From: an uncultured Eubacteriales bacterium
GTDB taxonomy: Bacteria; Bacillota; Clostridia; Oscillospirales; Acutalibacteraceae
NCBI GenBank assembly: GCA_900314355.1
Contig: OMUY01000084.1
Coordinates: 1 to 42,294 of the forward strand
DNA: 42,294 bases
Direction of reading: 5' to 3'
Position numbers and translations under genes: made by a program. The notes under the pieces were generated by a model. That model saw only the letters and a list, made by a program, of their open reading frames with translations. It made no database searches and was not told where the DNA came from. Positions 2,282-32,999 of this stretch are shown piece by piece. Every line of letters starts with the position of its first letter. Positions within the stretch are counted from its first letter, which is position 1.

Positions 2282-3298
2282 ATGGCTGCAAATATGCAAA
2301 AAATCAAGCTGCTGAAGCTGTATGAGCTGTTACGCAAAGAGACGGATGAAAGCCATCCCATCTCCCGTGTCGAGCTTTGCAGACGGCTTAATGAAATGGG
2401 CATTTCCAGCAACGTCCGGACGCTGAGTTTGGACATCGAAGTAATGCAGGACAATGGCTTCGAAATCATGAGCTACCTGAAGGACAAAGAAAAATTTTAC
2501 TACGTTCCGGAGCATGAGCTCACGGTGCCGGAGATCAAAATCCTGATCGACGCGGTGCAGGCGGCCAGCTTCGTCACGGAAAAGAAAACGGCAGAGCTCG
2601 TTGAAAAGGTCGCCGCTCTCGGTGGATCCCATCAAGCGGAGCTGCTGAAAGAAAACATGGTCTGCTTTAACACCCGGAAGCACACGAATGAGTCTATTCT
2701 CTACACCGTCGATGGTATCGAGGATGCGATCATCCGGAGAAAGAAGATCGCGTTCAATTACTTCCATCTCAACGAGAAGGCCGAGCGGGTTTTCGTCACA
2801 ACGAGCACCGGCGAAAAGAAGCGTTATTACGTGGAACCGGTCGCGCTTATATTTAATGAAGACAACTATTACCTGATGGCCTACAGCAACAGGCACCCAG
2901 AGCGGACAGCGAGCTACCGCGTTGATCGTATGGATCACTTGGAAGTTGTTGAAGAGTCCGTCCTCTCCGACGAAGCCATAGCAAAGATTGACGGCGTAGC
3001 TGAATTCACGGAGCAGGCCTTCAAGATGTTCAGCGGCGACCTTGAAGATGTGGTGCTGCAGTTTGACAAATCCCTCATAGGGCCTGTGTTTGACAAGTTC
3101 GGTGAGGATACTGCTATGATGCCGATCAATGATACCACGTGTGCTGCAACCGTGCATGTGTAGGTTAGCCCCACGTTCTATGGTTGGCTTGCTCAGTTTG
3201 CGGATAAAATGAGAATTCTATCTCCCGACCATCTGATATATGAATTCCGCAATCACATAGAAATGATACTCGCAGAAAAAGCGATCGAGGTCAAATAA
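2282..3298 (+). pseudogene. WYL-domain regulator (BrxR/CapW-like) with in-frame amber codon
   Basis: The reading frame starts at ATG 2282 behind AAGGAGG (2269-2275). It encodes an N-terminal winged-helix domain (about residues 1-80) and a WYL domain with the typical stretch YYVEPVALIFNEDNYYLMAY (about residues 180-199). It hits TAG at 3161-3163 after 293 codons. The same frame then continues without interruption to TAA at 3296-3298. That tail (VSPTFYGWLAQFADKMRI...) is the typical WCX C-terminal end of this family. One base change therefore separates it from a 338-residue protein. BrxR-type WYL proteins repress BREX and other defence operons, matching its place here. Loss of the tail could alter ligand response, or the gene may be inactive. 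Confidence 0.85.
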
Positions 3299-3337: not shown

Positions 3338-5860
3338 ATGGAGCTGAAAAACAGACAGCCGCAATGGGATATATATGAAGCCGTCATCCTTCTCGATGGT
3401 TACCTTGAATCACTAAAGAAGACACAACCTCGCTCACACATAATAAAACGGGTTTCACAAGATTTACGGCAAATGGCGCAAAACCGTGGAATCGCCATTG
3501 ACGAAGTCTATAGAAATGAAAACGGCATTTCTTATCAGATGCAGAGCATGGAATCTGCGTACAAAGGGCAGAAGGTTTACGTTCCTGCTACGAGACTCTT
3601 CCGCGAAGCCGTTGATTTATACAGAGACAATTACGAGCAATACCTCTCTACGTTAACGGAGGCAAGAAGAATGATCGATGCTAGACCAGATACCAAAAAA
3701 GCCTTTTTGGAATGGGCTGCATCCGCTGTTTCGCAGAAGAAGTATAAGTGGATAGAAGCTAACCTGAAAAAAGCAGAACAATTCGGGATAAAGGCAAGAC
3801 TTATCTCCGGATCTCTTTTCGATGTTGTCGATGAAAGTGTGCTTGCGTCGCTACTCAATGCACTTCAAAAGAATAAGGTTTTCAAAGTTACGAACAGAGT
3901 TCATTATGGAAAGATAATCGGCGACTTCATGCTTTATATGAGGTACTGCGCCGAGCGCCCGGTCATCGAAAGCATAGGAACAGAAGAAGATACCGATTCC
4001 AAAGACGAGATTGCAGCTTCTGCCACCGAACAGAGCGAATCCGGTATTCCTGTTTCTGTTTCCAGACGTATGGTTAACTTTTCCAACATTGGAAGCATGG
4101 CATATACAAGGCCACTCTCTTTTGAATACAAGGGAGAAATCCATGACGCGAAAAAATGGGGCAGTCTATATGTCAAGCTGATTTCAATGCTGCGCGTGGA
4201 GTTCGCTGATTTATTTGCTGCCTCAGTAGATAAAAAGACTTTTCATACAGATGCGTTAATGATTGCGTCGGAGGAAAAGAAGCACCTACTGAGAATGCCC
4301 AGAGCAATCGGTGGTGGCCAGTATATTGAGGGTAACTGCTCTGCCACAAGAATCGTAAAAGGCATCAAGGGATTTCTTGACCTATGCGGAGTGCAGTACG
4401 ATCGGCTACATATTTGGTATCAAAAGCTTGATGATACAACCAACGCAGACGATACTTTGACCGGAACAATGCCCGCAGTTGAAGTGAATCCCGAAATCGC
4501 AAGTGTTTTGCGGCAACACTATCAGTTTGGCTTTAAATTCGAATCGATTCGAGAAATGATGCGATTCAGGCAATTTGCCGCAGCGATGGACATCACGTTG
4601 CCTTCGGATGACGAAGAACTGAAGAGGGAAATACTCGCATCCGGTACTGTGATCGAGGACAGGGTGTATTGCAAAAGCGACGATCTGCCTTCCCAATTAC
4701 AGAGTATTATCGAGGACGTCTTCTCCACCGGAGCGGAAGTCATTTATTACGAATGCCTGTTCGACGGTCAATCGGAATGGATGTCAAGTCATCTGATTAC
4801 TTCAGATAATATGCTCAAGGAATACTTACAGAAGCATCTTCGTGGCTGCTCCTTCTCCAAGAAATTCATGAACAGAGGCGCAAAGCTTACGGAAAAAGCA
4901 GCAGTTACTTCTGAAATAAAGCGGGTATGGGGTGATAAGCAGACAGAGAGTGTCGATGTTTTGAGCGAGAAACTGCCCTATATCCCAAAGGGAAATATTT
5001 GGCGAGTTATTTCTGGCAATGACGATTTCGTTCTTTCCTCCGAAGGAGTTTATCTTCTTGTTGATCGGCTGCGTATTACCGATGATGAAATCGAAGATAT
5101 TCTCGACTTTGTCAGCTCGACGTGCGAAGAGAAAGGATTCGCGTCATTGAGTGACGTCCCGCTTGGTGACATCGAAGAGGAAAACTACGAACTCACTGCG
5201 CTTGCAATATATAACGCGATTTACAAAAAAGTGCTGAGGGATAAATACCATCTTAACGGAAAGATCCTGACAGTAGATAATCCCGATCTGGATGTGGTCA
5301 CTCTTTTGAAGCAATTCATCGCCGGAAGAGAATCGTGTTCTTTCGATGAGGTGTCAGAGAAAGTTGTTGATCTTACTGGTGGGACAAACCGTCAATATGC
5401 TTTTCAGGCGCTTTACGATGAGATGGTGAGGACAGAAGCAAATCGATTCGTCGCAAACAGATTTGTGGATTTTAGGGTCGACGAAATAGACCGGATTCTG
5501 GCTGGCTTCGTTACGGATCACTTCGTAGCAATTCGAGATATTACGACCTTTGCGATGTTCCCGCTCTGTGGCCAGAACTGGAACCATTATCTCCTGGAAA
5601 GCTATTGTTACAAATATAGCAAGAAATATAGCCTGCATGTTCTCCACTTCAATGATAAAAATGCTGGAATCATTGCAGAGCGAACATTTGATAGGCAGTA
5701 CGTTGAAATGCTCGCCTTGGCCTTGGCCAGAACAGATACTGAATTGACACCTGAAGCTGCAGGTCAGTATTTGTTTAATACGGGGTACATGGCTAAGAGC
5801 AAGTATGCGCGACTTGAAGAAATAATACAGCAGGCAAGAGAACTGCGAGAAAGGAAGTGA
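3338..5860 (+). CDS. Large unrecognised protein, first gene of the BREX-like operon
   Basis: This 840-residue cytoplasmic protein has no signal peptide or membrane segment. I do not recognise a catalytic motif. Residues about 8-75 (QWDIYEAVILLDGYL onward, ending near ENGISYQM) resemble an N-terminal module I associate with Clostridia proteins of unknown role. The middle is acidic and variable around 215-245. The C-terminal third has a helical segment around IPKGNIWRVI and LRITDDEIEDI that could be a winged-helix or HARE-HTH-like fold. The last 150 residues are conserved-looking (FAMFPLCGQNWNHYLLESY). AGGAGG at 3326-3331 favours ATG 3338 over ATG 3332. It ends 5 nt before the BrxP start, implying a shared role. 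It is not among the four core type 4 BREX genes I know. Confidence 0.7.
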   Translation: MELKNRQPQWDIYEAVILLDGYLESLKKTQPRSHIIKRVSQDLRQMAQNRGIAIDEVYRNENGISYQMQSMESAYKGQKVYVPATRLFREAVDLYRDNYEQYLSTLTEARRMIDARPDTKKAFLEWAASAVSQKKYKWIEANLKKAEQFGIKARLISGSLFDVVDESVLASLLNALQKNKVFKVTNRVHYGKIIGDFMLYMRYCAERPVIESIGTEEDTDSKDEIAASATEQSESGIPVSVSRRMVNFSNIGSMAYTRPLSFEYKGEIHDAKKWGSLYVKLISMLRVEFADLFAASVDKKTFHTDALMIASEEKKHLLRMPRAIGGGQYIEGNCSATRIVKGIKGFLDLCGVQYDRLHIWYQKLDDTTNADDTLTGTMPAVEVNPEIASVLRQHYQFGFKFESIREMMRFRQFAAAMDITLPSDDEELKREILASGTVIEDRVYCKSDDLPSQLQSIIEDVFSTGAEVIYYECLFDGQSEWMSSHLITSDNMLKEYLQKHLRGCSFSKKFMNRGAKLTEKAAVTSEIKRVWGDKQTESVDVLSEKLPYIPKGNIWRVISGNDDFVLSSEGVYLLVDRLRITDDEIEDILDFVSSTCEEKGFASLSDVPLGDIEEENYELTALAIYNAIYKKVLRDKYHLNGKILTVDNPDLDVVTLLKQFIAGRESCSFDEVSEKVVDLTGGTNRQYAFQALYDEMVRTEANRFVANRFVDFRVDEIDRILAGFVTDHFVAIRDITTFAMFPLCGQNWNHYLLESYCYKYSKKYSLHVLHFNDKNAGIIAERTFDRQYVEMLALALARTDTELTPEAAGQYLFNTGYMAKSKYARLEEIIQQARELRERK

Positions 5861-5865
5861 TTAGT

Positions 5866-8202
5866 ATGTATTCCTATACCTTTGACGCGGAAACCGGTGG
5901 AATAATACTGAATTCAACTCCTACAAATTTCTCGAAGGAGCCACGTCCTGTATATGCACAGGAAATGGATATCCTTGGATTTGATAAATACTGGAACTAT
6001 GAAAAGCAGAATGATGTTCCATATATGTGGGCGGAGGCAAACGCGTATTGGTACAGAGGCACACAAGTTGCAAAGACAAAAGGCGGTGACCTTTATTCTG
6101 CGCCAGAACTGCAACCGATCAGAGATGAGAACGGATCGATACTGTTTTGCGCAGAAAGCGGATATCATTTAACACCTATTGATTTGGAGCAGATGTGCTT
6201 GAAAAACGAAGATCTCCTTACTGTTATCGAAGATGCAACTGTCAAACGAATAGTCAAGGAGTATGAAAAATTCAAAAGCAAACTTGATATATTCCATGTA
6301 GCTTTCTCCGGTGGCAAGGATAGTGCGGTCTTGCTGGACTTGGTTAGAAAAGCTCTTCCGAAAGACAGTTTCGTTGTGATTTTCGGTGACACGGGAATGG
6401 AATTCCCAGACACATATAAAACCGTCGAACACACGAAACAACAATGCGAGATTGACGGCACTCCATTCTACATTGCACGCTCCCATTTTGACCCGAAGGA
6501 TTCATGGAAGCTGTTTGGCCCTCCGGCAAGAGTATTACGCTGGTGCTGTAGTGTTCACAAGAGCACCCCGCAAACACTCAAAATGCGGGAAATCACCGGG
6601 AAGAACAATTATGTTGGAATGGACTTCGTCGGAGTAAGAGCGCATGAAAGTGTAGCACGAAGCAAGTACGATTATGAAAACTTTGGAAAGAAACAGCGAG
6701 GGCAGTACAGCTACAACCCAATTTTAGAATGGACGTCGGCAGAAGTTTGGTTATACATTTTTAATAACCATCTGTACATCAACGACGCTTACAAGAAAGG
6801 AAATGCGCGGGCAGGATGTCTTTTTTGTCCCATGGGAGGCGGATCTAGCGATTTCTTTAGGCGTCACGCATATACCCAAGAACTGGATCAGTACGTTGAG
6901 TATATCAAAGCGTCCTATTCGTCAACAGATCCGCAAAAAGCAGAATCCTATATTAAAAATGGCGGTTGGAGCGCAAGAAACAACGGCAGAGATTTGAAGG
7001 ACAACAAATTCCGCTGCGTGGAAAACACAACAAAGGGTAATATCATTATTACCGTAACAAAGCCCACGACAGATTGGAAAGAATGGATAAAAACACTTGG
7101 CACATTGATTGAAACAGAGGACGGATATTCGATTCTATTTGAGAATAGTGAGATTTCGTTCCGTGTCGAGTCAAAAATTGATGGCTATGTTGTGTATTTA
7201 CCAGAAAAAGTTGCGACTGAGAATCCTAAGTTTTCCAGATTGTTTAAGCAGGTTTTTCGCAAAGCGTCATATTGCTCAGCTTGTAGAGTATGCGAAACGA
7301 ATTGTCGGAACGGCTGCATTAGATTCACGAACGGAAAGCTCAGTATTACGAACTGTGTGCACTGCTATCAGTGCCATAATATAGAGAGTGGATGCTTGCT
7401 ATTCCATTCCCTTAGACACCCGCAAGGAGGAGGCGTTGGTATGAAAAGTTTAAACTCATTTGCTGATCACGCACCGAAGCGTGACTGGTTGGTTTCGTTC
7501 TTCGATCTCAAGGAAGACTTCTTCACTGAGCATACTCTTGGCCCCATGATGTATGATATGTTCAGGCGTTTTCTCAGAGATGCCGGTTTGAATGAAAAGA
7601 ACCATTTCACCGCATTTGCTGAGTTGATCGATAATATGGGTTGGGAAACTGATACAGCCCTCGGACTTATCCTCGTCAATTTGGCAATGGAGAATCCGCA
7701 GATTGCATGGTACATAAACAACATGGATATCGGATATTTCTACGAGAGATCAAAAATCGAAGAGATGCTCATGTCCGTCGAAGTTAAACCAAAAGACGCC
7801 AAGTCAATTGCAAAGGCATATAAAAGAATTGTTGAGACACCTTTCGGGACAGTACTGAATTTCGGATACGTTACAGACGATGATGATATGGTACGCACCA
7901 AATGCTCGATCAGCGATAATAGAGTGTTACTGTACGCTCTCTACAAATTCGCTGAGAAATGTAATTTGGCCAAAGAATTTAGCGTCGCATATTTGCTTGA
8001 CGAATCCGTTGAAAGAGATGGCGTAAGTCCAATCCGAATCTTCGGGTTATATGATGAGGAAGAACTGAAATCCAGACTTCTGGGATTGTCCTCCGCATAT
8101 CCTGAGTTTATTAATGCAACATTTACAAATGACTTGCAAACCATCACGCTGAGAGAGAAGTCCAGCAAAGATGTGCTTGATATGTTCAAGGAGGAACTGT
8201 AA
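5866..8202 (+). CDS. brxP: BrxP-like PAPS-reductase-family protein with ferredoxin and DUF4007-like domains
   Basis: This is a 778-residue multidomain protein. An ATP-pyrophosphatase (PP-loop) core carries SGGKDS at residues 148-153, followed by FGDTGMEFP, WCCSVHK, and the cysteine-rich GCLFCPMGGG. This is the DndC-like arrangement used to adenylate or sulfurate a substrate. Cysteines 470, 473, 476 and 480 (CxxCxxCxxxC) and 497, 500, 503 and 510 look like a two-cluster [4Fe-4S] ferredoxin domain. From about residue 526 the sequence (MKSLNSFADHAPKRDW) resembles DUF4007, a partner of DndC-like proteins. ATG 5866 is preferred over GTG 5857 because AGGA lies at 5852. BrxP is the hallmark of type 4 BREX. 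Use of sulfur on DNA is an inference. Confidence 0.85.
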   Translation: MYSYTFDAETGGIILNSTPTNFSKEPRPVYAQEMDILGFDKYWNYEKQNDVPYMWAEANAYWYRGTQVAKTKGGDLYSAPELQPIRDENGSILFCAESGYHLTPIDLEQMCLKNEDLLTVIEDATVKRIVKEYEKFKSKLDIFHVAFSGGKDSAVLLDLVRKALPKDSFVVIFGDTGMEFPDTYKTVEHTKQQCEIDGTPFYIARSHFDPKDSWKLFGPPARVLRWCCSVHKSTPQTLKMREITGKNNYVGMDFVGVRAHESVARSKYDYENFGKKQRGQYSYNPILEWTSAEVWLYIFNNHLYINDAYKKGNARAGCLFCPMGGGSSDFFRRHAYTQELDQYVEYIKASYSSTDPQKAESYIKNGGWSARNNGRDLKDNKFRCVENTTKGNIIITVTKPTTDWKEWIKTLGTLIETEDGYSILFENSEISFRVESKIDGYVVYLPEKVATENPKFSRLFKQVFRKASYCSACRVCETNCRNGCIRFTNGKLSITNCVHCYQCHNIESGCLLFHSLRHPQGGGVGMKSLNSFADHAPKRDWLVSFFDLKEDFFTEHTLGPMMYDMFRRFLRDAGLNEKNHFTAFAELIDNMGWETDTALGLILVNLAMENPQIAWYINNMDIGYFYERSKIEEMLMSVEVKPKDAKSIAKAYKRIVETPFGTVLNFGYVTDDDDMVRTKCSISDNRVLLYALYKFAEKCNLAKEFSVAYLLDESVERDGVSPIRIFGLYDEEELKSRLLGLSSAYPEFINATFTNDLQTITLREKSSKDVLDMFKEEL

Positions 8203-8203
8203 T

Positions 8204-11200
8204 ATGCCGGTACAGAATCTGAAGTATTGCGAATACTTTGATGTCAACGAAAAGTACTTCCCCTGCATTGATGAATCAGCGATAAACAGCGGAGCTGCAT
8301 GGGACAATACTTATCCCCATGAAACATTCATCGAGCTTTTGAATCTTACAGAAAAAATGCTGGGCGGGAACACCAACCGGTCTCTGTGGATTCATGGTGC
8401 GTATGGTACCGGTAAGTCTCAGTGTGCGTATGCATTAAAAAAGATACTCGAGGTACCGGAGGCAGAGGTTAGAGCTTATTGGGATAAGTTTGAACCTCTC
8501 AAAAAGAATCCAGCTTTGCTCGAGAAGATCATCGGCCACAAAGCACAAGGAATTGTGACTGCTTATCGTTATGCCTCGGGCAGCATTACCACCCCCCAGC
8601 AGTTGTTCTTTGCCGTACAGGAAAGTGTTAAGAAGGCGTTGGATGCTCATGGCGTAGAGTATAGAGGGGAAAATTCCCTCAAGGAGAGCGTGATTGCCTG
8701 GCTGGAGGATCCCATCCACAACCAGTTCATGGATGCTCTGCTTCAGAAACCCAAGTGGATGTCCACGTTTTCTCAATCCACAGCAGATGAGATTATAAAT
8801 ACATTAAAGAAGAGCTCAGACGTCTCTTCACTAATGGATGATATTTTCAGCCTTGCGGCGCAAGAAGGGATTACCGCCCTTGACCTTACTGCTGATTCCT
8901 TGCGTGATTGGCTCGCAGATATTATTGACAAGAATAACATCAAAATCGTCCTGATATGGGATGAGTTTAGTGACTATTTCCGCCAGAACAGCACCTCACT
9001 AGGCGAATTCCAGAAAATTGTATCGATCTGCCAAGAGAAACCGTTCTATTTTGTGATCGTAACTCATCCGCTGTCGTCGCTAGCGAAGAAGTTCGATAGC
9101 GGAGATAAAACGAACCCATGGTCTGTTGTCCAGCAGAGATTTGATAAAGTCGAAATCACATTGCCGGATAACATTGCTTTTGACTTGATTGGACATGCTT
9201 TTAATGTTAAACCTGCGGCTAAGGCCAATTGGGTACAGATGACCGGAGACTTGAACTCTTCTGTAAATGGAGCACGGGCAGCAGTTGTAAAGGCAGCAAA
9301 CATTAAGGGTGAGACCGTGATGAGGGATATTCTACCCATCCATCCGATCGCTGCTCTCGTCCTTAAAAACATAGCATCTGCGTTTCAGTCTAACCAGCGC
9401 AGCATGTTTGATTTCATCAAGACGCCTAAAGATATGGAAGTTAAGGCGTTCCAGTGGTTTATTCAGAACACGAGCCCCCTTTCCGATCGCCCGTTCCTTA
9501 CGGTCGATATGCTTTGGGACTTCTTCTATGAGAAAGGAAAAGACTATCTTTCTTCTGACATAAAGCTGATTTTGGATACGTTCCCCCAGCAGAAGCAGCT
9601 TACTGACAAGGAAAAAATTGTACTAAAAACAATACTGATCATGCAGGCAATCGATCAAAGACTGGGTGGTGCTCTACCGATTCTGAAGCCAACAGATCAG
9701 AACCTTAGTTATGCTTTTGAAGGAGACACTCCCGAGCTAGAATCCTCCTGTAAGAGTATCGCAAAGGCGCTGGTCAAAAAAGGCATTTTGATCGAGAATC
9801 CAATTGCAGATAATAAGAAGGTATACTCTGCGGCAGTTCTCGCCGGTGATGGCGCAAAGATAGATGCGTTCAAAAAAGATATCCGCGAGAAACAAGGCAC
9901 CACTGCAAAACTGGTATCAGAAGGTGGTGCAGTTGCTGCTGCGCTCAGCTTGCCCCCGGCGCTCAAGCTTAGATATGCTCTTGACATTGACAGTGGCAAG
10001 CTGCCTGTTGTGACTATCTCCGATTTCAAAAAAGCAATGGACGCGTTGAAGAGCAAGGATGTGGATTGGCATTTCTATGCTGTTCTTGCTTTGGCCAAGA
10101 CGGAGGAAGAGGCACAAAACTTCAGAACCATTATCAGAAATACCATTGCAGATCCGGCATATAAGAATATTGCAGTAATTGACGCATTGTCAACTCCGCT
10201 TGGACTGGAGGCTTTTGAACAGTACGTGGATTATTCTGCAATGTCAATGTACTATAGCGGCAACAATGGACAGCAATCCAAAGAGAACGCGAAAAAAGCC
10301 AAAGATGTCTTGGAACGTGATTGGAAGGATCGTATTCATGACGGGCAGTTCATTGTGTTCTCTTATGCCAATCCTGATGGAGAGAAGGCAACCGGTGCTG
10401 CTGCTGTACACACTATACTGCAAACGATCGTGCTTTCCAGATTCAAACACGTGCAGGATTTCACCAAGGGGCTTACTGAAACACAGTTGAAACTCACCAC
10501 TCCGAAACCCGTTGCGAAATACGGCATGGGAGTAATGGAAATAAAGGGACTTATTTCGGGGTGCGAAAAATCCGTACTGGGAAAGGTATGGTCAAAGAAG
10601 GAGTATTGGAAAGACGAGAGCCTCGCAGGTGAGCATATTGTCATCATCAAAAAAGCCGTAGATAAGATGATCGAGGATGCGTTTAGGTCAAGCGGCAGGA
10701 TTTCCATTGGCGAAATCTATGATCTCCTTGAAACAACATTCGGGTTCTCGGTCTGCAACCTGTCTGCGTTTATAACAGGTTTCCTGCTTAAAGAGTACAG
10801 CTCAGAACCTTACCGTTCTATGGATGCAGAGGGGCATCGGGATTCGATGACTCCGGATAAGCTTTCTGAGATGATCGGAAACTATATCGGTAAAGCTCCC
10901 AAAGCTACGTACATCGTCAGTCTGACCGAAGAAGAAAAAGCATTCTACGAATTAACGGAAAGCGGATGGAACATTACCGCGAACACCTGCTCCTCTCCCA
11001 GTCAAGCAGGTTCGCTCGTGCTGTCTAAAATGAGAGATCTCGCATATCCCGTTTGGTGCCTAGAGGATGTGGATTCTACAGGGGTATTCGACATTGTAAA
11101 ACTCTACATCAGACTCGTCCAGAGCAAAGGTGACGAAGCGCATGATATCGCAAACGATATCGGGAAGATAGCTATTCAGCGCCCGTCTGTCGCAGAAAAC

Positions 11201-12376
11201 ATGCGGACTCTTCTTACGGCAGAAAACTGCCGCAAGGGAATGCTGTTGTTCTTAGAGCGCTTTGAAAATGGCAAGCTGTTGAATTTGGCAAAGGAAATCG
11301 GTGCTGAAGACGCAGTCTTATCCGATATAAAAAAGCTGTTCAGCGTGCAGTATTCTGCGCTCTGGATCGGGCAAACCGGTGAAGATGAAATTCGCAAATT
11401 GATCACAGAGTATGAAGTAGTAAAATCCACGAATCTTCTTCTCAACGTCTCTGCGCATTCCAAAGAAGGTGCATTTAAGGCTTGGCGTGATTGCCTGAAA
11501 TTTATTGGGTTCTCCTGCGAGTCTGTAAGAGCAAAGCGCCCCTCATTGGATAAATTCTTCTATAACCTTCTCCGCATTGCTGGTTATGAAGATATGCTTC
11601 CCGACAACATGAAATCATTCCGTGACGAAATGGCTAATCACAACACGGAGATTAGGGATGTTCTTGGCGATACTCTGGCTATCTTCATGGAAATTTATGC
11701 GCCCTATTTGAGCGGCTTCACAGATGCTGAATGTGAGGAAATCAAGAACTCTATTACTTCTGAGATGTTCACCTCATCTTCGACTGCAAGCAACGCAACG
11801 GTAAAGAAAGCAGCAGAAGAGTATAGAAAGAATCAGGTTAAGTCACAGCTGTATAAGCTCTGGAGCGATAAAACTGGCGGCACAAAGAACCCGCGTGCTT
11901 GGTCTGAAAAGTATCGCACACCCATTTTGTGCTGTGTCCCGGCTAAAGACTATGCTAATGCAAAGAAGGCCTTTGCGACGTTGAACAGCAGCACGCAAAG
12001 TGAAGCAGATATAAAAGAAGCTCTCTCCTTCCTGCAAAGTGCTGAGTTCTTCGGCGATATCGCTTCTGAGGCATTCCGCGATCAGGCTTTCAGAAAGAGG
12101 ATCATAGGCGATTATATCAGTCTGCTTTCCAATATTGAGGAAGTGCGCGATGCATTAGAAAGCACTGGCATTAGCGCATATGAATGGAATGATAATCCGA
12201 GTATTAGAAGCAAAATTTCAAGCATGGCATCTGCCGAATATAATGCCGGAGGCAGTGACAGAGCCATTGGAATCATTGATTCGATGGAAGGGCCAGAGCT
12301 GAAAAAATGGCTGACAGAGATCGTCCGTAAAGACATGGGGTTAGGAGTTAAGATCATCGTCAACAAGGAGGGATAA
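8204..12376 (+). CDS. brxC: BrxC/PglY-like large P-loop ATPase
   Basis: This is a 1390-residue ATPase. The Walker A motif GAYGTGKS is at residues 65-72, and the Walker B segment ends IVLIWDEF with D253-E254. BrxC/PglY proteins are 1200-1400 residues long with an N-terminal P-loop domain of this kind, and they are required for BREX modification and phage exclusion. The rest is mostly helical, without motifs I can name. AAGGAGG at 8188-8194 is well placed for ATG 8204, which lies 1 nt beyond the BrxP stop. The pglZ start follows 4 nt after its end, so the genes are tightly coupled. Confidence 0.88.
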   Translation: MPVQNLKYCEYFDVNEKYFPCIDESAINSGAAWDNTYPHETFIELLNLTEKMLGGNTNRSLWIHGAYGTGKSQCAYALKKILEVPEAEVRAYWDKFEPLKKNPALLEKIIGHKAQGIVTAYRYASGSITTPQQLFFAVQESVKKALDAHGVEYRGENSLKESVIAWLEDPIHNQFMDALLQKPKWMSTFSQSTADEIINTLKKSSDVSSLMDDIFSLAAQEGITALDLTADSLRDWLADIIDKNNIKIVLIWDEFSDYFRQNSTSLGEFQKIVSICQEKPFYFVIVTHPLSSLAKKFDSGDKTNPWSVVQQRFDKVEITLPDNIAFDLIGHAFNVKPAAKANWVQMTGDLNSSVNGARAAVVKAANIKGETVMRDILPIHPIAALVLKNIASAFQSNQRSMFDFIKTPKDMEVKAFQWFIQNTSPLSDRPFLTVDMLWDFFYEKGKDYLSSDIKLILDTFPQQKQLTDKEKIVLKTILIMQAIDQRLGGALPILKPTDQNLSYAFEGDTPELESSCKSIAKALVKKGILIENPIADNKKVYSAAVLAGDGAKIDAFKKDIREKQGTTAKLVSEGGAVAAALSLPPALKLRYALDIDSGKLPVVTISDFKKAMDALKSKDVDWHFYAVLALAKTEEEAQNFRTIIRNTIADPAYKNIAVIDALSTPLGLEAFEQYVDYSAMSMYYSGNNGQQSKENAKKAKDVLERDWKDRIHDGQFIVFSYANPDGEKATGAAAVHTILQTIVLSRFKHVQDFTKGLTETQLKLTTPKPVAKYGMGVMEIKGLISGCEKSVLGKVWSKKEYWKDESLAGEHIVIIKKAVDKMIEDAFRSSGRISIGEIYDLLETTFGFSVCNLSAFITGFLLKEYSSEPYRSMDAEGHRDSMTPDKLSEMIGNYIGKAPKATYIVSLTEEEKAFYELTESGWNITANTCSSPSQAGSLVLSKMRDLAYPVWCLEDVDSTGVFDIVKLYIRLVQSKGDEAHDIANDIGKIAIQRPSVAENMRTLLTAENCRKGMLLFLERFENGKLLNLAKEIGAEDAVLSDIKKLFSVQYSALWIGQTGEDEIRKLITEYEVVKSTNLLLNVSAHSKEGAFKAWRDCLKFIGFSCESVRAKRPSLDKFFYNLLRIAGYEDMLPDNMKSFRDEMANHNTEIRDVLGDTLAIFMEIYAPYLSGFTDAECEEIKNSITSEMFTSSSTASNATVKKAAEEYRKNQVKSQLYKLWSDKTGGTKNPRAWSEKYRTPILCCVPAKDYANAKKAFATLNSSTQSEADIKEALSFLQSAEFFGDIASEAFRDQAFRKRIIGDYISLLSNIEEVRDALESTGISAYEWNDNPSIRSKISSMASAEYNAGGSDRAIGIIDSMEGPELKKWLTEIVRKDMGLGVKIIVNKEG

Positions 12377-12379
12377 CGC

Positions 12380-14656
12380 ATGCTTTGCAAAGAAGTGCAA
12401 GATTATATTTCTACTGTTAAAGGATTGCCCTTCTTCTATATAGTCGGAGATGAGCAATACTCATCTGCGGTAGATGATTTTATGCAGGCAGGCTTAACCG
12501 TTGTGCGTATGAGCGATTTCTGCCCCAAAGAGGATAAGTTTCCCAGCATCGATGACTTGGTGGATTATTTCCGCACGTCCGATGTTGACTACAGGGACAA
12601 TAAATTCGTTGTCTTAGGACTGGGAGAGTACCTCGCACTTCGTGGGGCAGCCATTGCAGATAAAGAGCTTCACAGATTGAAAAACACCACTATAGGAAAC
12701 GCAAGAGCGATACTTCTCTTACGCGGTGTTTCTGCTCAAATGAAAAAGATCGTCAGCGATGACAATCGCATCACAGAGCAGCGAAGAGCATTCTTCGATG
12801 GAGATTTGTTCACTTCAGTAGCTATCACGAATGTTACTGAGGACGTTGGTGTCGTTACAAGAAAAGGAATCAAGCACATAATCAGGGCAATGGAAGATGG
12901 CGCGTTCGGCACTGTCTTGGGGAGCTCTGCGCTTGTTCTTGATAATGCGCTTTTCCCCGTTTCGACGATCCAGGGTAGCTATCCAGCAATCAAATACTTG
13001 CTGCATGATTTTGCTATAGAGCAAAGCCTCGGGACGGAGGATCAGTGGAATCGTCTTTTGAAAGACCTGAATAAATGCAACAGGTCGATTTCCGCAGTGT
13101 TCGCCAAGTATGGAATTGATGACCAGATCTTAGACGACTTGAATCTTGCAGTTTCTGGACTGGAATATAAGAATTGGCTCGTATTCCTTTACCTCAAAAC
13201 GCACGCCAAAGAGATCCAGAGCGCCTATCTCAATGCGGTAGTTGAGAACACCGAACATTTCGAGGATCTCAAGAGAAACCTGCTTACATTCATCACCACG
13301 GTTCCCCACGCAGACAGCCGATTCAGGAAGTTCTACGACGATAGAAAGAGACTGCTGAAAGATTTTCCCGAAGCCGATATTGCGATATTTGTTAAGGCAA
13401 ATGAGATTGATCCCGAAGAAAGCATTTATCGACTTACCGATAATACTCTTCTGGAGAAGAAAACGATCGTTAAGTGGATAGCGCATTACGGGTATTCTGA
13501 TGCAATTTCCTATGTGTATCCCGCGCTCAATGACTACTTAAGAAAATATGTGTTTGATAGTCCCGTGCTTGCAGATGAGATGACCAAGTATTTTGATCTT
13601 TACAAGCAGCAAAAGGTTTCAAACCACATTTCAACTGAGTTCATTTCCCTCGTTGAAGCGAATGCGAGAGGGCTATCATATGCACAGCTTCCTACACGGG
13701 ACAATGCTATCAAGGCAGTGTCTGACAAGGACAGTGCTTATCTATACTGGATTGATGCGCTGGGGGTTGAATATCTTTCCTTTATTTCTGCGTTAGCGAA
13801 GAAAAAAGGACTATCCATTCGCACCCAAGTAACACGGTCTGATCTTCCGACCATCACCTCGATCAACAAGCAGTTTTTTGATCAGTGGAACGGTGGAAAG
13901 AAATACAAAGAAGAGCAGCTCGATAATATTAAGCACAAAGATAAGGGAGGATACTTTTTCACTGATGATGAAGATCCCATTCACATCCCGGCGGAGCTTG
14001 AGGTAATCGAGCGAGCGATTAACACGGCTGCAATGGAGTTGGGTATGCACCATTGCAAATCCTTCGTGATTGCCAGCGACCACGGTGCTTCTCGTCTTGC
14101 TGTAATTAAACGGCAGGAGGTGCCCTATGACACTGATACAAAAGGCGAGCATTCCGGAAGATGCTGTAAGGCGTTTGAGTCTTGTGATGCACCATTCTTT
14201 GTAGAAGAAAACGGTTTTATTGTGCTCTCCGACTATGGAAGATTCCGTGGAAGTAGACCGGCAAATGTTGAGGTGCATGGCGGAGCAAGCTGGGAGGAAA
14301 TCATTGTACCGGTGATAACACTTACGCTTAAGAAACAAGCAGGTGTCCAAATTACAGTGATGCATCCGAACGATATCTTTGTTGATCGGCATTCCGGAGT
14401 TTCCATTTCCTTGTATATCTCGGATGTCGAATCGGTAGATAAGGTCAGTATAATTGTCGAAGACAAGACCTACACCGGAAAAACTGATGACGGTACGCAC
14501 TTTGAATTTGCTTTGACAGATATTAAACGCGCAAGATCAAAGCCATACGTAGCGGAGGTTTATGATGGCTCGGATCTAATTGGATCCGTATCCTTCAAGG
14601 TTAAAGGCAAAGCAGCAACTGTCAAAGATGATTTTGATTTCGGCGACGATTTCTAA
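12380..14656 (+). CDS. pglZ: PglZ-domain protein (alkaline phosphatase superfamily)
   Basis: This is a 758-residue BREX core protein. The C-terminal half carries the PglZ fold of the alkaline phosphatase superfamily. Candidate metal ligands are D459 in YWIDALG, D567-H568 in IASDHG and H633 in VHGGASWEE. The N-terminal half is helical and unassigned. PglZ is present in every BREX type and is needed for both modification and restriction; its substrate is unsettled. AAGGAGG at 12366-12372 precedes ATG 12380. It is co-transcribed with brxC upstream and brxL 11 nt downstream. Confidence 0.92.
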   Translation: MLCKEVQDYISTVKGLPFFYIVGDEQYSSAVDDFMQAGLTVVRMSDFCPKEDKFPSIDDLVDYFRTSDVDYRDNKFVVLGLGEYLALRGAAIADKELHRLKNTTIGNARAILLLRGVSAQMKKIVSDDNRITEQRRAFFDGDLFTSVAITNVTEDVGVVTRKGIKHIIRAMEDGAFGTVLGSSALVLDNALFPVSTIQGSYPAIKYLLHDFAIEQSLGTEDQWNRLLKDLNKCNRSISAVFAKYGIDDQILDDLNLAVSGLEYKNWLVFLYLKTHAKEIQSAYLNAVVENTEHFEDLKRNLLTFITTVPHADSRFRKFYDDRKRLLKDFPEADIAIFVKANEIDPEESIYRLTDNTLLEKKTIVKWIAHYGYSDAISYVYPALNDYLRKYVFDSPVLADEMTKYFDLYKQQKVSNHISTEFISLVEANARGLSYAQLPTRDNAIKAVSDKDSAYLYWIDALGVEYLSFISALAKKKGLSIRTQVTRSDLPTITSINKQFFDQWNGGKKYKEEQLDNIKHKDKGGYFFTDDEDPIHIPAELEVIERAINTAAMELGMHHCKSFVIASDHGASRLAVIKRQEVPYDTDTKGEHSGRCCKAFESCDAPFFVEENGFIVLSDYGRFRGSRPANVEVHGGASWEEIIVPVITLTLKKQAGVQITVMHPNDIFVDRHSGVSISLYISDVESVDKVSIIVEDKTYTGKTDDGTHFEFALTDIKRARSKPYVAEVYDGSDLIGSVSFKVKGKAATVKDDFDFGDDF

Positions 14657-14667
14657 GGAGGATAAAC

Positions 14668-16164
14668 ATGGAGCTTTCTGAGAAGCTAAGAGACAATTTT
14701 GATGAGATGGTCGTATTCAAAGACCTGAAAAAGACCAACTTTTTCTCCACGTTGAGTCTTCCTGCGTTCATGAGAGACTGGCTTCTGAAAAAGTTTGAGG
14801 ACGATGAAGGCTACTTCGACAAGGATGATCTTGCCAGATTTGTCAAGAAATTCATTCCTCGCAAGGATGACTGGAACGCGATCAAGAATGCTATCGTAAT
14901 TGAAGGCAGAACGGTTAAATTCCTTGCGAAGGTATCCGTCAACATCGATATCAAAACTGGCGAAGTGTCTTTCTCACTGCCGGACTTTGGCCTCGGATTC
15001 AAGGAAACAATTATTGAACCTGACGTTTGGGATTCGTGCAAGGAGGACTTGGTTAAAGGACGAGATATCTGGGGTATGGTCGAGCTCGGCTATCGTTCCC
15101 CTGATGATTTTGACTTTACATTTGAGTATGAGAAAAAATCATCGAAGGCGAAGAACTCAAAAGACGGAAAAATCAAGCTCGTCTCTTTTAAGAACTTCTG
15201 CCCGTATGAAATTGACCTCGACAACTATAAAGATGCTCGACAAGAATTCACAACAGAAGAATGGATAGATGTTATTCTTGGCGCAGTCGACTATAATGCA
15301 GCTGGATATACTACCGAAGAAGAAAAGCTGACAATGATCACCAGACTGCTTCCATTCGTTGAAAAGCGACTAAACTTGATCGAGCTTGCACCGAAAGGAA
15401 CAGGAAAATCCTATTTGTTCGGAAACGTAAGTCGCTTCGGATGGCTTTCAAGCGGCGGTGTAATGAGCCGGGCAAAGATGTTCTATGATCAGACCAAGCG
15501 CAGAGAAGGCCTGATTGCCGGAAGTGATTTCGTAACGCTGGACGAAGTTCAAACGATTTCCTTCACAGACACTGACGAAATGCGTGCTGCACTGAAAGGA
15601 TATCTTGAACAGGGCAATTTTACTGTCGGAGATTATAAAGGTACGGCAGATGCTGGCGTTATCCTTTGCGGCAATATTAGAAAAGAGATTATGGACGCAG
15701 ATGGATACAGCAATATGTTCACGGAGCTGCCGGTCGTATTCCATGAATCTGCTTTGATCGAGCGCTTCCATGGCTTTATCAAAGGATGGAATATCCCACG
15801 TATGAAAGATGACTTAAAAGTCAATGGATGGGCTCTTAACTCGGAGTACTTCTGCTCCATCCTTCATGAGCTACGTGGAGATATGACTTACCGCAGCGTA
15901 GTAGATGAACTCATCATTGTTCCAGAAGGCGCAGATACTCGAGATACCGAAGCAGTTAAGAGAATTGCGACAGCATATTTAAAGCTGATATTCCCCCATG
16001 TTCAGCACGCAGAGGATATTACTCCGAGGGAGTTCAAACGGTATTGCTTTGATAGAGCCAGAAGAATGCGTGATACAATTAAGTACCAGTTGGGTCTTCT
16101 TGATGTTGAATATGCGGGAAAGGATTTGCCCCCGTTTAGGATCAGAGGTATAGACAGCGAATAA
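14668..16164 (+). CDS. brxL: BrxL, short form (AAA+ ATPase)
   Basis: This is a 498-residue BrxL-family protein. The Walker A motif APKGTGKSY includes K247, the Walker B motif is VTLDEVQ with D292-E293, and the N-terminal half matches the BrxL regulatory region. Type 1 BrxL proteins are near 680 residues and end in a Lon-protease-like domain. This one stops after the AAA+ module (LGLLDVEYAGKDLPPF near the end) and has no room for that domain. A shorter BrxL subfamily exists, so I read this as a natural short form and not a truncation. GGAGG lies before ATG 14668. BrxL is thought to act on DNA during phage exclusion, not to degrade protein. Confidence 0.85.
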   Translation: MELSEKLRDNFDEMVVFKDLKKTNFFSTLSLPAFMRDWLLKKFEDDEGYFDKDDLARFVKKFIPRKDDWNAIKNAIVIEGRTVKFLAKVSVNIDIKTGEVSFSLPDFGLGFKETIIEPDVWDSCKEDLVKGRDIWGMVELGYRSPDDFDFTFEYEKKSSKAKNSKDGKIKLVSFKNFCPYEIDLDNYKDARQEFTTEEWIDVILGAVDYNAAGYTTEEEKLTMITRLLPFVEKRLNLIELAPKGTGKSYLFGNVSRFGWLSSGGVMSRAKMFYDQTKRREGLIAGSDFVTLDEVQTISFTDTDEMRAALKGYLEQGNFTVGDYKGTADAGVILCGNIRKEIMDADGYSNMFTELPVVFHESALIERFHGFIKGWNIPRMKDDLKVNGWALNSEYFCSILHELRGDMTYRSVVDELIIVPEGADTRDTEAVKRIATAYLKLIFPHVQHAEDITPREFKRYCFDRARRMRDTIKYQLGLLDVEYAGKDLPPFRIRGIDSE

Positions 16165-16165
16165 T

Positions 16166-16366
16166 ATGGAGAAGAAGAAGTGTTATGTTTGCGGGAAGTC
16201 CCCACTATCAAAGGATGAGATAGGACTCACCAAAAAGTTGATAGATCGGAAGACAACCACGTTTTACTGCTTGTCTTGTTTGGCTGAGTATTTTGAAGTA
16301 ACAGAAGAAGAGCTAACGGCAAAGATTGAAGAATTCAAAAACGAAGGATGCACTTTGTTTCAATGA
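16166..16366 (+). CDS. 66-residue zinc-ribbon microprotein
   Basis: This small protein has two CxxC knuckles, CYVCGKSPLS at residues 6-15 and CLSCLAEYF near residues 35-43, spaced like a zinc ribbon. An acidic helix with EELTAKIEEF follows. It starts 1 nt after the BrxL stop with no good ribosome-binding site, so it is probably translated by coupling. The cysteine desulfurase starts 10 nt after its stop, from an SD overlapping its end. Similar small proteins occur in other Clostridia, but I know no function. The position suggests an accessory or sulfur/metal-handling role, which is inference. Confidence 0.7.
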   Translation: MEKKKCYVCGKSPLSKDEIGLTKKLIDRKTTTFYCLSCLAEYFEVTEEELTAKIEEFKNEGCTLFQ

Positions 16367-16376
16367 GGTGATTCCG

Positions 16377-17504
16377 ATGAAGTATCAAGTCTACGCTGAT
16401 AACGCAGCTACCACCAGACTGGATGAAGTGGCGTTTGAAGCAATGTTGCCATGGCTAAAAGACAACTATGGTAACGCTTCTCAACCCTACTCGTTTGCAC
16501 GCGAACCGAAGAAAGCTCTTGCCGCAGCGAGGGAAACAATAGCTGCATGTATTGGCGCAAACCCGGAAGAGATATTTTTTACTTCGGGCGGGACAGAAAG
16601 TGATAACTGGGTAATAAAGAGCTCCGCTTTTGCAGATGTTGATCGTCGTGCAACGATCACATCCGCTTTCGAACATCACGCCATATTACGGTCTTGTGCC
16701 ACAATTGAACGGTTAGGGTATCCAGTTGCATATCTGCGACCTACGGCTGATGGACTGATTCTTGCAGAAACGTTAAGGCGCATCATTACTAAGCAAACGA
16801 GATTGGTTTCTGTTATGTTCGCTAATAACGAACTCGGATCAATACAACCAGTAAAAGACTTGTGTGCGGTCGCACACGAATATGGCGCACTTTTCCATAC
16901 AGATGCTGTTCAAGCAGTTGGCCACATTCCTATCAATGTGCACGATCTAAGTGTTGATTATTTATCAGCTTCGGCGCACAAATTCAACGGCCCCAAGGGG
17001 GTTGGCTTTTTGTACGTTCGAAAAGGATTGGATCTACTTCCGTATGCTGATGGAGGATCACAAGAGAAAGGTCACAGAGCAGGTACCGAAAATATAGCTT
17101 CAATAGTTGGAATGGCAGCTGCACTTCGAGAGAATTGTAACGCAATAGAAAAGAACGTTCAGTTCCTCTCGAATCTTGAAAAGCGGTTATTAGAAGGGCT
17201 GCGTGAAGCGGGTGTAAAGTTTATTCGCAACGGTGGAGCAAACACACTTCCGGGTCTTCTCAGCTTGTCATTCCCGGGGAGAGATGGCGAGGCAATTTTG
17301 CATCGAATGGATTTGATGGGGATAAGTATTTCGACCGGATCAGCATGCGACAGCATCAATACACAGAAGTCGCATGTGTTGGATGCCATTAATCTCGAGG
17401 ATGATTTGGCTTTTGGCACTATACGTATCTCACTAGGTCGATATAACACTGAGAGCGATGTCGACATGATCGTTTCCGGCCTCTCTCGAATCCTTAACAC
17501 ATGA
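16377..17504 (+). CDS. Cysteine desulfurase (NifS/IscS/DndA-like)
   Basis: This is a 375-residue class V aminotransferase-fold enzyme. It uses PLP to take sulfur from cysteine and hold it as a persulfide. The N terminus YADNAATTRLDE is typical. The PLP lysine is K202 in SASAHKFNGPKG, and the persulfide cysteine is C324 in STGSACDS. ATG 16377 is chosen for GAGGTG at 16364-16369; the frame extends 17 codons upstream but overlaps the previous gene. DndA, the sulfur donor of DNA phosphorothioation, belongs to this family. Its place after brxL, with a DndC-like BrxP in the same operon, suggests it feeds sulfur or Fe-S clusters to BrxP. Confidence 0.92.
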   Translation: MKYQVYADNAATTRLDEVAFEAMLPWLKDNYGNASQPYSFAREPKKALAAARETIAACIGANPEEIFFTSGGTESDNWVIKSSAFADVDRRATITSAFEHHAILRSCATIERLGYPVAYLRPTADGLILAETLRRIITKQTRLVSVMFANNELGSIQPVKDLCAVAHEYGALFHTDAVQAVGHIPINVHDLSVDYLSASAHKFNGPKGVGFLYVRKGLDLLPYADGGSQEKGHRAGTENIASIVGMAAALRENCNAIEKNVQFLSNLEKRLLEGLREAGVKFIRNGGANTLPGLLSLSFPGRDGEAILHRMDLMGISISTGSACDSINTQKSHVLDAINLEDDLAFGTIRISLGRYNTESDVDMIVSGLSRILNT

Positions 17505-17802
17505 GCATTGTCACTTTCTGCGGTCACAAGGAAATAGCGGACACGTCCACGGTGCGAGCCGCTGTGGATGAGATCCTTTGCGGCCTTGTGGCAGAAGGTG
17601 CCGACTATTTCCTGCTCGGCGGCTACGGCGGTTTCGATTCCCGCTGGAGGGAGTTCCGCTGAAATTCGCAATCTCTAAGAGGAACGAATGGATGGTGGAT
17701 CAGGCCGACGTTGTCGTTGCCTACGTACAGCACAGCTGGGGCGGCGCAGCGGCCACGCTCCGATACGCAGAAAGCAAACATAAACGGATTATTAGGATAT
17801 AG
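17501..17802 (+). pseudogene. SLOG-like protein remnant with internal deletion
   Basis: An ATG overlapping the desulfurase stop opens a frame reading MSIVTFCGHKEIADTS and later LLGGYGGFDS, the N terminus of a nucleotide-binding SLOG/DUF1273-like family. It stops at TGA 17660-17662 after 53 residues. The typical C-terminal half (PLEGVPLKFAISKRNEWMVD, then WGGAAATLRYAE) continues in another frame to TAG 17800-17802. The middle of the protein, roughly 40 residues, is missing at about 17638-17643. This is an out-of-frame internal deletion, so the gene is dead. Confidence 0.78.
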
Positions 17803-17816
17803 ACAGCGAAGGACAG

Positions 17817-17850
17817 CCCCACAGCGATTTTGCTGTGGGGTTTTCTTTTT
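17817..17850 (+). terminator. Terminator closing the defence island
   Basis: CCCCACAGC and GCTGTGGGG form a 9-bp stem around GATTTT, followed by TTTTCTTTTT. It separates the defence island from the LexA-led phage module. Confidence 0.9.
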
Positions 17851-31688: not shown

Positions 31689-32999
31689 ATGCAAATAGAG
31701 AAAATCCCCGTAGAAAAGCTGCGGGCAGCGGAATACAACCCGCGTCGAGCACTCAAGCCCGGTGACGCGGAATACGAAAAGCTCAAGCGCAGCATTACGG
31801 AATTCGGATATGTGGAGCCGGTCATCTGGAACAAGCAGACCGGCAACGTGGTCGGTGGGCACCAGCGATTGACGGTCATGCGTGATCTGGGGATTACTGA
31901 GATTGACTGCGTCGTGGTGGATCTCGACCCGATGCGCGAAAAGGCTCTGAACGTAGCGCTCAATAAGATTCAGGGCGAATGGGACAAGGATAAGCTGGCC
32001 GCTTTGCTCACAGAGTTTGACGGCAGCGAATTCGATGTCACCCTGACCGGTTTCGACGCAGCGGAAGTCGATGAGCTCTTAAACGCCTTCTACTCGAAAG
32101 AAGCGATTCAGGATGACTTCAATGTCGATGAAGAGCACGAAGCGATCAAGGCCAAAGGTGCGATCACGAAGACCGGCGATATCTGGAAGCTGGGCGTCCA
32201 CAGGCTCATGTGCGGCGACTCCACCTCGGAGGTGGACTTCGCAAAGCTCATGAACGGGAACAAAGCACAGATGGCGGTCACGTCTCCTCCGTATGGTGTC
32301 GGCAAGGATTACGAAACCAAAGGCATCGAGCCTTGGTTTGATACGATGCGACCGGTCGTGAAGAACCTGACCCGGTACGCAGGGATCATATGCTGGAACC
32401 TCGGAGATCTGTATTCCACCGGAACGCAGTTCATTGAACCAACAAACTTCTACTCCTCCCAGCTGTTCAGCGAGCAGGGCTTTCGTCCGATCTGGATCAG
32501 GATTTGGAAGAAGCAAGGCATGAACTACGGCGTCGGCCCCTACCACCTCGTTACAAACAAGCCGGTGCAGCAGTACGAATACATCTCCGCTTTCAGCAAG
32601 AACGGCGATGTGGAGTACAACGATCAGGAATATGTGTGGCTGTCGGCCTACGCCGGTCATGCATACCGGTTTGTAAAACGCCTCACAAAGGAAGAGCGAA
32701 AGAACTGGGGCTACGCTGGTATCTGGGAAATGACTACGGTGCGTGCGAACAAAGAGCACCCGGCCATGTATCCGGTGGAACTCCCGTGGCGCTGCATCAA
32801 GATGCATTCGGATCGCGGCGATCTCGTGTTGGAGCCATTCTCCGGCAGCGGCACTACGATCATTGCGTGTGAGCAGCTGGAGAGGGTTTGTTATGCGATG
32901 GAGAAAAGCCCGGAATACTGCGACCTCGCCGTCAAACGTTGGGAACAGTTCACTGGGCAAAAGGCGGAAAGGGTGACGAAGCATGGCACCGAAGCATGA
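31689..32999 (+). CDS. ParB-like/DNA methyltransferase fusion 1 (TSPPY)
   Basis: This is a 436-residue fusion. Residues 1-90 are a ParB/sulfiredoxin-like domain (NPRRALKPGD, GGHQRLTVM). Residues about 165-420 are a beta-class DNA methyltransferase with catalytic TSPPYG (198-203) and the SAM-binding FSGSGTT (384-390). SPPY suggests N4-cytosine methylation, though some N6-adenine enzymes share it. Fusions of this kind are common next to phage terminases and may protect phage DNA. It is the first of two paralogues in this cassette; the second has DPPY. Confidence 0.9.
   Translation: MQIEKIPVEKLRAAEYNPRRALKPGDAEYEKLKRSITEFGYVEPVIWNKQTGNVVGGHQRLTVMRDLGITEIDCVVVDLDPMREKALNVALNKIQGEWDKDKLAALLTEFDGSEFDVTLTGFDAAEVDELLNAFYSKEAIQDDFNVDEEHEAIKAKGAITKTGDIWKLGVHRLMCGDSTSEVDFAKLMNGNKAQMAVTSPPYGVGKDYETKGIEPWFDTMRPVVKNLTRYAGIICWNLGDLYSTGTQFIEPTNFYSSQLFSEQGFRPIWIRIWKKQGMNYGVGPYHLVTNKPVQQYEYISAFSKNGDVEYNDQEYVWLSAYAGHAYRFVKRLTKEERKNWGYAGIWEMTTVRANKEHPAMYPVELPWRCIKMHSDRGDLVLEPFSGSGTTIIACEQLERVCYAMEKSPEYCDLAVKRWEQFTGQKAERVTKHGTEA

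Follow-up and report, generated by a model that had tools for sequence, protein, structure and literature searches.

A stretch of 42,294 nucleotides from an uncultured Eubacteriales bacterium (contig OMUY01000084.1; hereafter, the window) carries an intact type 4 bacteriophage exclusion (BREX) operon at positions 3338–17504 of the + strand, an assignment that the family scores place beyond doubt. We give a probability of about 80% to the operon being a phosphorothioate-type BREX system with the overall mechanism set out below, and the DNA of the host itself is the probable target of its sulfur mark. The sulfur route that an earlier note on this DNA had proposed, from a cysteine desulfurase through BrxP to DNA, is already in print in passages of the type 4 literature and is not new; the addition made here is a separate lineage of BREX-associated desulfurases. 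The least understood part of the operon is its first gene (gene 1), which encodes a modular protein directly upstream of brxP and to which the earlier note gave no role.

Operon structure

The source genome is a draft of 2.23 Mb and is 86% complete. The operon consists of seven intact genes on the same strand, with intergenic gaps of 1–11 nt, a spacing too tight to be explained as a chance reading (Table 1). Their order is gene 1, brxP, brxC, pglZ, brxL, a 66-residue zinc-finger gene and a cysteine desulfurase gene, and the four genes that define type 4 BREX when found in a single operon (brxP, brxC, a type 4 pglZ and brxL) are all present. The earlier note had recognized BrxP-, BrxC-, PglZ- and BrxL-like proteins in the type 4 order, together with a complete desulfurase and the lack of PglX, and strong profile scores bear this out: no PglX occurs among the genes scanned, and the operon genes matched no methyltransferase family in Pfam, PADLOC or NCBIfam. 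Two ParB-methylase genes of the window sit in a downstream prophage, outside the operon. The note had overlooked the zinc-finger gene, an open reading frame (ORF) with CxxC/CxxC motifs between brxL and the desulfurase gene. The starts of brxP and brxC were corrected, most likely to ATG 5866 and ATG 8204.

A gene for a WYL-domain protein adjoins the operon on its 5′ side, and the protein is BrxR-like as a WYL protein beside a BREX operon; in one further locus (L101) a WYL gene likewise lies directly 5′ of gene 1. A terminator-like hairpin follows the operon. Hairpin-type sites numbered 19 against a shuffle mean of 14.9 (standard deviation 3.2), that is, not far above it, and the hairpin behind the operon has the longest + strand stem listed. 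Rfam and tRNA scans of the window gave no matches.

BrxP and the desulfurase

The BrxP alignment comprised 54 sequences, or 50 after merging identical ones, with those matching ≤700 of 772 profile positions excluded. The PP-loop motif SGGKDS (residue 151, counted from GTG 5857) and the eight ferredoxin-type cysteines (residues 473, 476, 479, 483, 500, 503, 506 and 513) were invariant in all 50 of these distinct near-full-length proteins, as were C230, C231, C321 and C324, so that the PP-loop and double cysteine cluster named in the earlier note are upheld. Its DUF4007-like end is supported indirectly: PF13182 was not detected directly in the BrxP of the window, but scored 30.9 bits (cut-off, 27) on the C terminus of a homologue (L046) that aligns with residues 4–753 at 28% identity, which suggests that the window protein has such an end too. 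A stand-alone DUF4007 gene adjoins in 13 of 18 genomes with shorter BrxP-like proteins (the broken G285 excluded; the other five were not among the matches listed), the expected picture for Ssp-like systems.

The desulfurase belongs to PF00266 (class V aminotransferase fold) and has both the pyridoxal phosphate (PLP)-binding lysine and the catalytic cysteine, numbered K202 and C324 from ATG 16377 exactly as the earlier note had given them. Its co-occurrence with type 4 BREX, a check which that note had proposed, was surveyed in 38 genomes. Three loci were cut by contig ends; in 24 of the 35 decidable loci the desulfurase gene lies immediately 3′ of brxL. Two of these operons (L060 and L061) are identical, four of the 11 desulfurase-less loci have <2.3 kb of contig left, and two candidates that seemed to lie near the L080 operon proved to be on other contigs. 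These counts agree with passages of a 2026 Nucleic Acids Research paper (PMC12839542) that propose the desulfurase as a sixth core component of type 4 BREX, report it in 255 of 457 taxa (56%) and describe a small zinc-finger protein in the same systems. A similar small zinc-finger ORF lies 5′ of the desulfurase gene in 18 of 23 stretches examined, taken from the 24 with a desulfurase after brxL; the contigs of these 23 agree in length with those that carry the BREX operons.

A tree of 43 desulfurases placed every one of the 24 BREX-adjacent enzymes, that of the window among them, within a clade of 26 rows (support, 98/99). The remaining two members of the clade (L145 and L149) also sit behind brxL, in the second BREX-4 operons (L157 and L158) of the Flexilinea flocculi and uncultured Ruminococcus genomes, so that 26 of 26 clade members follow brxL. 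The two other desulfurases of the window's genome (45% and 35% identical) lie outside the clade. The BREX-4 enzyme thus groups with those after brxL and apart from other copies, and, judged by this tree, looks dedicated to BREX-4 as a lineage of its own.

Proposed sulfur marking and its alternatives

In the mechanism that we propose, the desulfurase would draw sulfur from cysteine, with K202 binding PLP and C324 carrying the persulfide, and would pass it to BrxP, whose PP-loop domain would insert it into host DNA with electrons supplied through two [4Fe-4S] clusters. Three parts may together choose the DNA site, namely the BrxC ATPase, the modular protein encoded by gene 1 and the probable DUF4007-like end of BrxP; unmarked replicating phage DNA would be stopped by BrxC, PglZ and BrxL, and the WYL protein would regulate the operon. 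Passages of PMC11931770 attribute phosphorothioate formation to brxPCZL, with reference to a preprint (Yuan et al. 2024), and passages there and in PMC12839542 describe an action of type 4 BREX on phage that involves no restriction endonuclease activity.

The desulfurase might instead only build the two ferredoxin-type Fe–S clusters of BrxP, the DNA mark then being either not fed by the desulfurase or not sulfur, an alternative that we consider improbable. It accords with the invariance of the eight cysteines, but BrxP has an intact PP-loop, and a desulfurase is a common requirement of PP-loop sulfurtransferases. For the Dnd phosphorothioation system there is a reported parallel, in that DndA assembles the Fe–S cluster of DndC (You et al. 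2007, by its title in the reference list of PMC12839542); the published production of phosphorothioates by brxPCZL, as stated in PMC11931770, argues the other way. The earlier idea of sulfur passing from desulfurase to BrxP to DNA agrees with that published activity, and the clade and the 24 of 35 loci strengthen its desulfurase link. It is only partly supported, in that the sulfur may serve the clusters only, the link is not new and gene 1 was left without a role. That the enzyme is an unrelated or housekeeping gene lying downstream by chance, for which its absence from 11 operons could be cited, is largely refuted by the tree, with all 26 clade members adjoining brxL. The genome also has two more desulfurases, and the gene stands 10 nt from a zinc-finger gene that itself begins 1 nt after brxL.

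Several points weigh against the phosphorothioate reading. For this organism, the sulfur mark is a prediction from genes and from the literature on type 4 systems. The desulfurase did not reach the cut-offs for orthology with DndA (TIGR03235; 310 bits versus 480) or with NifS (NCBIfam; 432 bits versus 530). It is absent beside 11 of 35 decidable operons, in which either housekeeping enzymes must serve or the desulfurase is not essential. The 19 non-adjacent enzymes in the tree were hand-picked (17 from the survey listing, not all of those listed, and two from the window's genome), and one of the latter two (L116) sits on a long branch. Finally, the conserved core of gene 1 lies upstream of only 7 of 16 full-length-type BrxP genes in 398 genomes of the phylum, and gene 1 is therefore not universal in type 4 systems.

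Gene 1 is tied to brxP

The gene-1 protein, numbered here from ATG 3332 (842 residues), matches no known family in Pfam, PADLOC or NCBIfam. The passages of PMC12839542 and of the other literature searched do not list it among the components, a silence that does not show the family to be undescribed. A scan for its C-terminal core across the GTDB species genomes, made with a profile and one conserved peptide pattern, led to 55 confirmed loci from 58 pattern matches. They come from Bacillota, Synergistota, sulfate-reducing deltaproteobacterial groups, Bacteroidota, Spirochaetota, Chloroflexota, Thermotogota, Planctomycetota and others, with one Methanoregula. In 51 of the 55, gene 1 is the immediate 5′ neighbour of brxP and is read in the same direction, at a spacing of ≤16 nt in 47 of these (reckoned from profile ends) and of 33 to 193 nt in L083, L105, L095 and L090; in the remaining four (L097, L111, L112 and L113), no brxP follows the core. 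This tie was not built in by construction, because the search used gene 1 alone. The co-occurrence of the two genes, which the earlier note had suggested checking, thus holds from the side of gene 1, but not from that of BrxP, with the core upstream of only the minority given above.

A sequence search with gene 1 in the 398 genomes gave seven matches, six with brxP behind them; the seventh (G224) is a piece of module N1 without the core, with no brxP in its stretch. Two further full-length BrxP loci have an upstream protein that carries module N2 (L049) or N3 (L052). A core relation of the L052 and L049 proteins was unconvincing (hhalign probabilities of 0.5 and 17%, respectively), so that on present alignments each has a module in common with gene 1 but not the core. 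In L045, another of the 16 BrxP places, and in the broken BREX-4 locus L053, a sigma-70-like gene occupies the place directly 5′ of brxP: that of L045 (13030–14511) matches Pfam sigma regions 1.1, 2, 3 and 4, and that of L053 (5528–6973) is 75% identical to it. On a BrxP tree of 50 rows, from a set enriched for gene 1 by its collection, the gene-1-core label needs two changes. Neither viral contigs nor plasmids contained a gene-1 relative, and the plasmid search for brxP returned only two versions of one Methanosphaera record (28%).

Modules and fold of gene 1

The protein combines three N-terminal modules with the conserved core (Table 1). N1 is helical in a model of residues 1–392; in L041 (6162–6878) and L158 (4307–5026), separate ORFs with N1 and an HNH-looking end stand between gene 1 and brxP. 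N2 occurs in tandem in relatives and resembles phage-integrase SAM-like domains in some copies, PF13102 having been matched in 4 of 30, with the window's copy not among them. N3 may have a SeqA-like fold, a match made by VIA-align only and at a level that the tool calls borderline; Foldseek with the N-terminal model found no match at E 0.001. The N3 profile gave six matches in 249 genomes of the phylum: four were weak, and the two strong ones belong to BREX-4 loci, namely those of the window and L052. For the core, AlphaFold2 predicts tandem winged helices (predicted local distance difference test (pLDDT) score of 92.4 for residues 365–842), and Foldseek finds a resemblance to the winged-helix arrays of UFL1 and SelB. 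Searches of PDB sequences with the module and core profiles gave nothing convincing. With E values as high as 1 allowed, Pfam matched nothing in the window's gene-1 protein, sigma-70 regions 2 and 4 included; only some relatives carry a Sigma70 region 4 motif.

Exchange of the N-terminal half

Comparison of closely related operons points to exchange of the N-terminal modules of gene 1. Between a deltaproteobacterium (L071) and Methanoregula (L091), BrxP is 88%, BrxC 84%, PglZ 86% and the gene-1 core 77% identical, whereas the N-terminal extension is 26% identical over 63% of its length. The window and L059 likewise share 81% in BrxP and 58% in the core versus 23% over 54% of the extension; L071 and L073 share 87% in BrxP versus 22% in the extension, and with BrxP at 77% the extension has 459 residues in L086 versus 12 in L093. 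Counter-cases exist. The extension is kept at 82% in L066/L067 (BrxP, 95%), wholly in the identical pairs L060/L061 and L102/L104, and in part (58%, 48% and 41%, over 55–59% of length) in L071/L082, L092/L103 and L073/L091 (BrxP, 84%, 86% and 82%). The core also diverges faster than BrxP, and fast change alone could yield some of the divergence of the N-terminal half. Frequent divergence of the N-terminal half between operons that otherwise differ little is, at the level of these alignments, as expected of a part that confers specificity or acts as a sensor.

The close likeness of L071 and L091, both of them metagenome-assembled genomes, further suggests transfer of the operon between domains, unless one of the bins is contaminated.

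Possible roles of gene 1

By inference, gene 1 is an exchangeable DNA reader that acts either in marking or in sensing. For marking, we tentatively propose an undescribed family acting as an interchangeable specificity subunit of phosphorothioate BREX: the core would dock to BrxP/BrxC, swappable N-terminal modules would read DNA and set the site to be marked, and the SeqA-like module would tell newly replicated, half-marked host DNA from unmarked phage DNA. The N-terminal string may then comprise head, integrase-SAM-like, SeqA-like and sigma-4-like modules.

The main rival is a transcription regulator of the operon, sigma-like or a winged-helix repressor, outside the modification and sensing machine. 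Such a role is conceivable rather than likely. The tandem winged helices of the core, the Sigma70 region 4 motif of some relatives and the sigma-like genes that fill the gene-1 slot in L045 and L053 speak for it, but the operon already has a WYL regulator, the size of gene 1 and its tight coupling to brxP do not fit, and unrelated N-terminal halves where BrxP is 81–88% identical would be odd in an autoregulator. Gene 1 could also, with much the same probability, be a phage sensor that licenses PglZ/BrxL, its modules binding phage DNA or proteins with no role in host marking. Module exchange is expected of sensors in an arms race as well, and passages of PMC9122589 describe a type 1 BREX gene that is dispensable for methylation yet involved in restriction; against a sensor, gene 1 is coupled to the modification gene brxP and not to pglZ or brxL.

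Features and neighbourhood

Table 1 Features of the type 4 BREX operon and its flanks in the window.
Feature	Position	Strand	Evidence or remarks
Putative WYL-domain regulator, BrxR-like position 5′ of operon	2282–3163	+	PF13280, 40.8 bits; PADLOC WYL, 55.8 bits
Gene 1 (P842), modular protein	3338–5860	+	840 aa from ATG 3338; 842 from ATG 3332
Module N1, residues 12–115, helical	3365–3676	+	Model pLDDT 81 (residues 1–392)
Module N2, residues 122–208	3695–3955	+	Tandem in relatives; some copies resemble phage-integrase SAM-like domains
Module N3, residues 241–369, possibly SeqA-like fold (borderline match)	4052–4438	+	
Conserved C-terminal core, about residues 387–842, predicted tandem winged helices	4490–5857	+	AlphaFold2, Foldseek
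brxP: PP-loop/PAPS-reductase domain, two ferredoxin-type Cys clusters, probable DUF4007-like end	5866–8202	+	PDLC02510, 834 bits; PF01507
brxC, AAA+ ATPase, Walker A GAYGTGKS	8204–12376	+	PDLC02485, 1663 bits
pglZ, type 4	12380–14656	+	657 bits; NCBIfam BREX_PglZ_4 (NF033445), 534 bits, cut-off 140
brxL, Walker A APKGTGKS	14668–16164	+	744 bits; TIGR02688, 397 bits, cut-off 329; PF13337, PF20442
Small Zn-finger-type protein, 66 aa, CxxC...CxxC	16166–16366	+	ORF between brxL and desulfurase
Cysteine desulfurase, BREX-4 clade, K202 and C324	16377–17504	+	PADLOC SspA, 415.5 bits, DndA, 411.9 bits; PF00266, 253.8 bits
Terminator-like hairpin 3′ of operon	17815–17842	+	12 pairs, then T-rich

ORF fragments in two frames, which we take to resemble a SLOG/YpsA-type pseudogene, lie between the desulfurase gene and the terminator (17505–17815). 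A prophage-like region (17953–40801) comes right after the operon, with genes for an S24 peptidase/LexA-like protein, a Y-family polymerase, an HNH protein, a SNF2 helicase, PolA, a primase and the small and large terminase subunits. Its ParB-methylase genes (31689–32999 and 34702–36030) enclose a PAPS-reductase-like gene (32983–33942), so that phage-side DNA modification and sulfur genes (31689–36030) occur beside a phosphorothioate-type BREX operon. At the prophage end farther from the operon is an Abi_2 family gene (39923–40801; PF07751, E 2e-44). Genes for an ArsR-type regulator, an ArsP_1 permease and a small thioredoxin (371–2069) precede the defence genes.

Relation to known systems

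The operon agrees with type 4 BREX in all four core genes, their order and the lack of PglX among the genes scanned, as well as in the desulfurase and small zinc-finger genes described in passages of PMC12839542, and differs by gene 1 directly 5′ of brxP. With Ssp (SspABCD) it shares matches of the PADLOC SspA, SspC and SspD models to the desulfurase, BrxC and BrxP; here, however, a DUF4007-like end is probably fused to BrxP, and PglZ and BrxL stand in the place that SspE or SspFGH take in Ssp systems. Dnd (DndABCDE) offers a DndA-like desulfurase (PADLOC) and a weak DndC similarity of BrxP (33.4 bits), whereas the TIGR03235 cut-off is missed and no DndD or DndE match was found among the operon genes scanned. 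HsdS is an exchangeable specificity subunit. By analogy only, gene 1 resembles HsdS-type subunits in that modules around a conserved core are exchanged in an otherwise little-changed operon, with the difference that its modules are integrase-SAM-like, possibly SeqA-like and winged-helix.

The separate desulfurase clade backs the sulfur reading and provides a marker for finding phosphorothioate BREX loci. For the choice of sites in such a system, which has no PglX, the gene-1 protein, modular, DNA-binding-like and coupled to brxP, is a concrete candidate. If the specificity-subunit reading is true, BREX type 4 alters what it recognizes by swapping modules, in the manner of HsdS.

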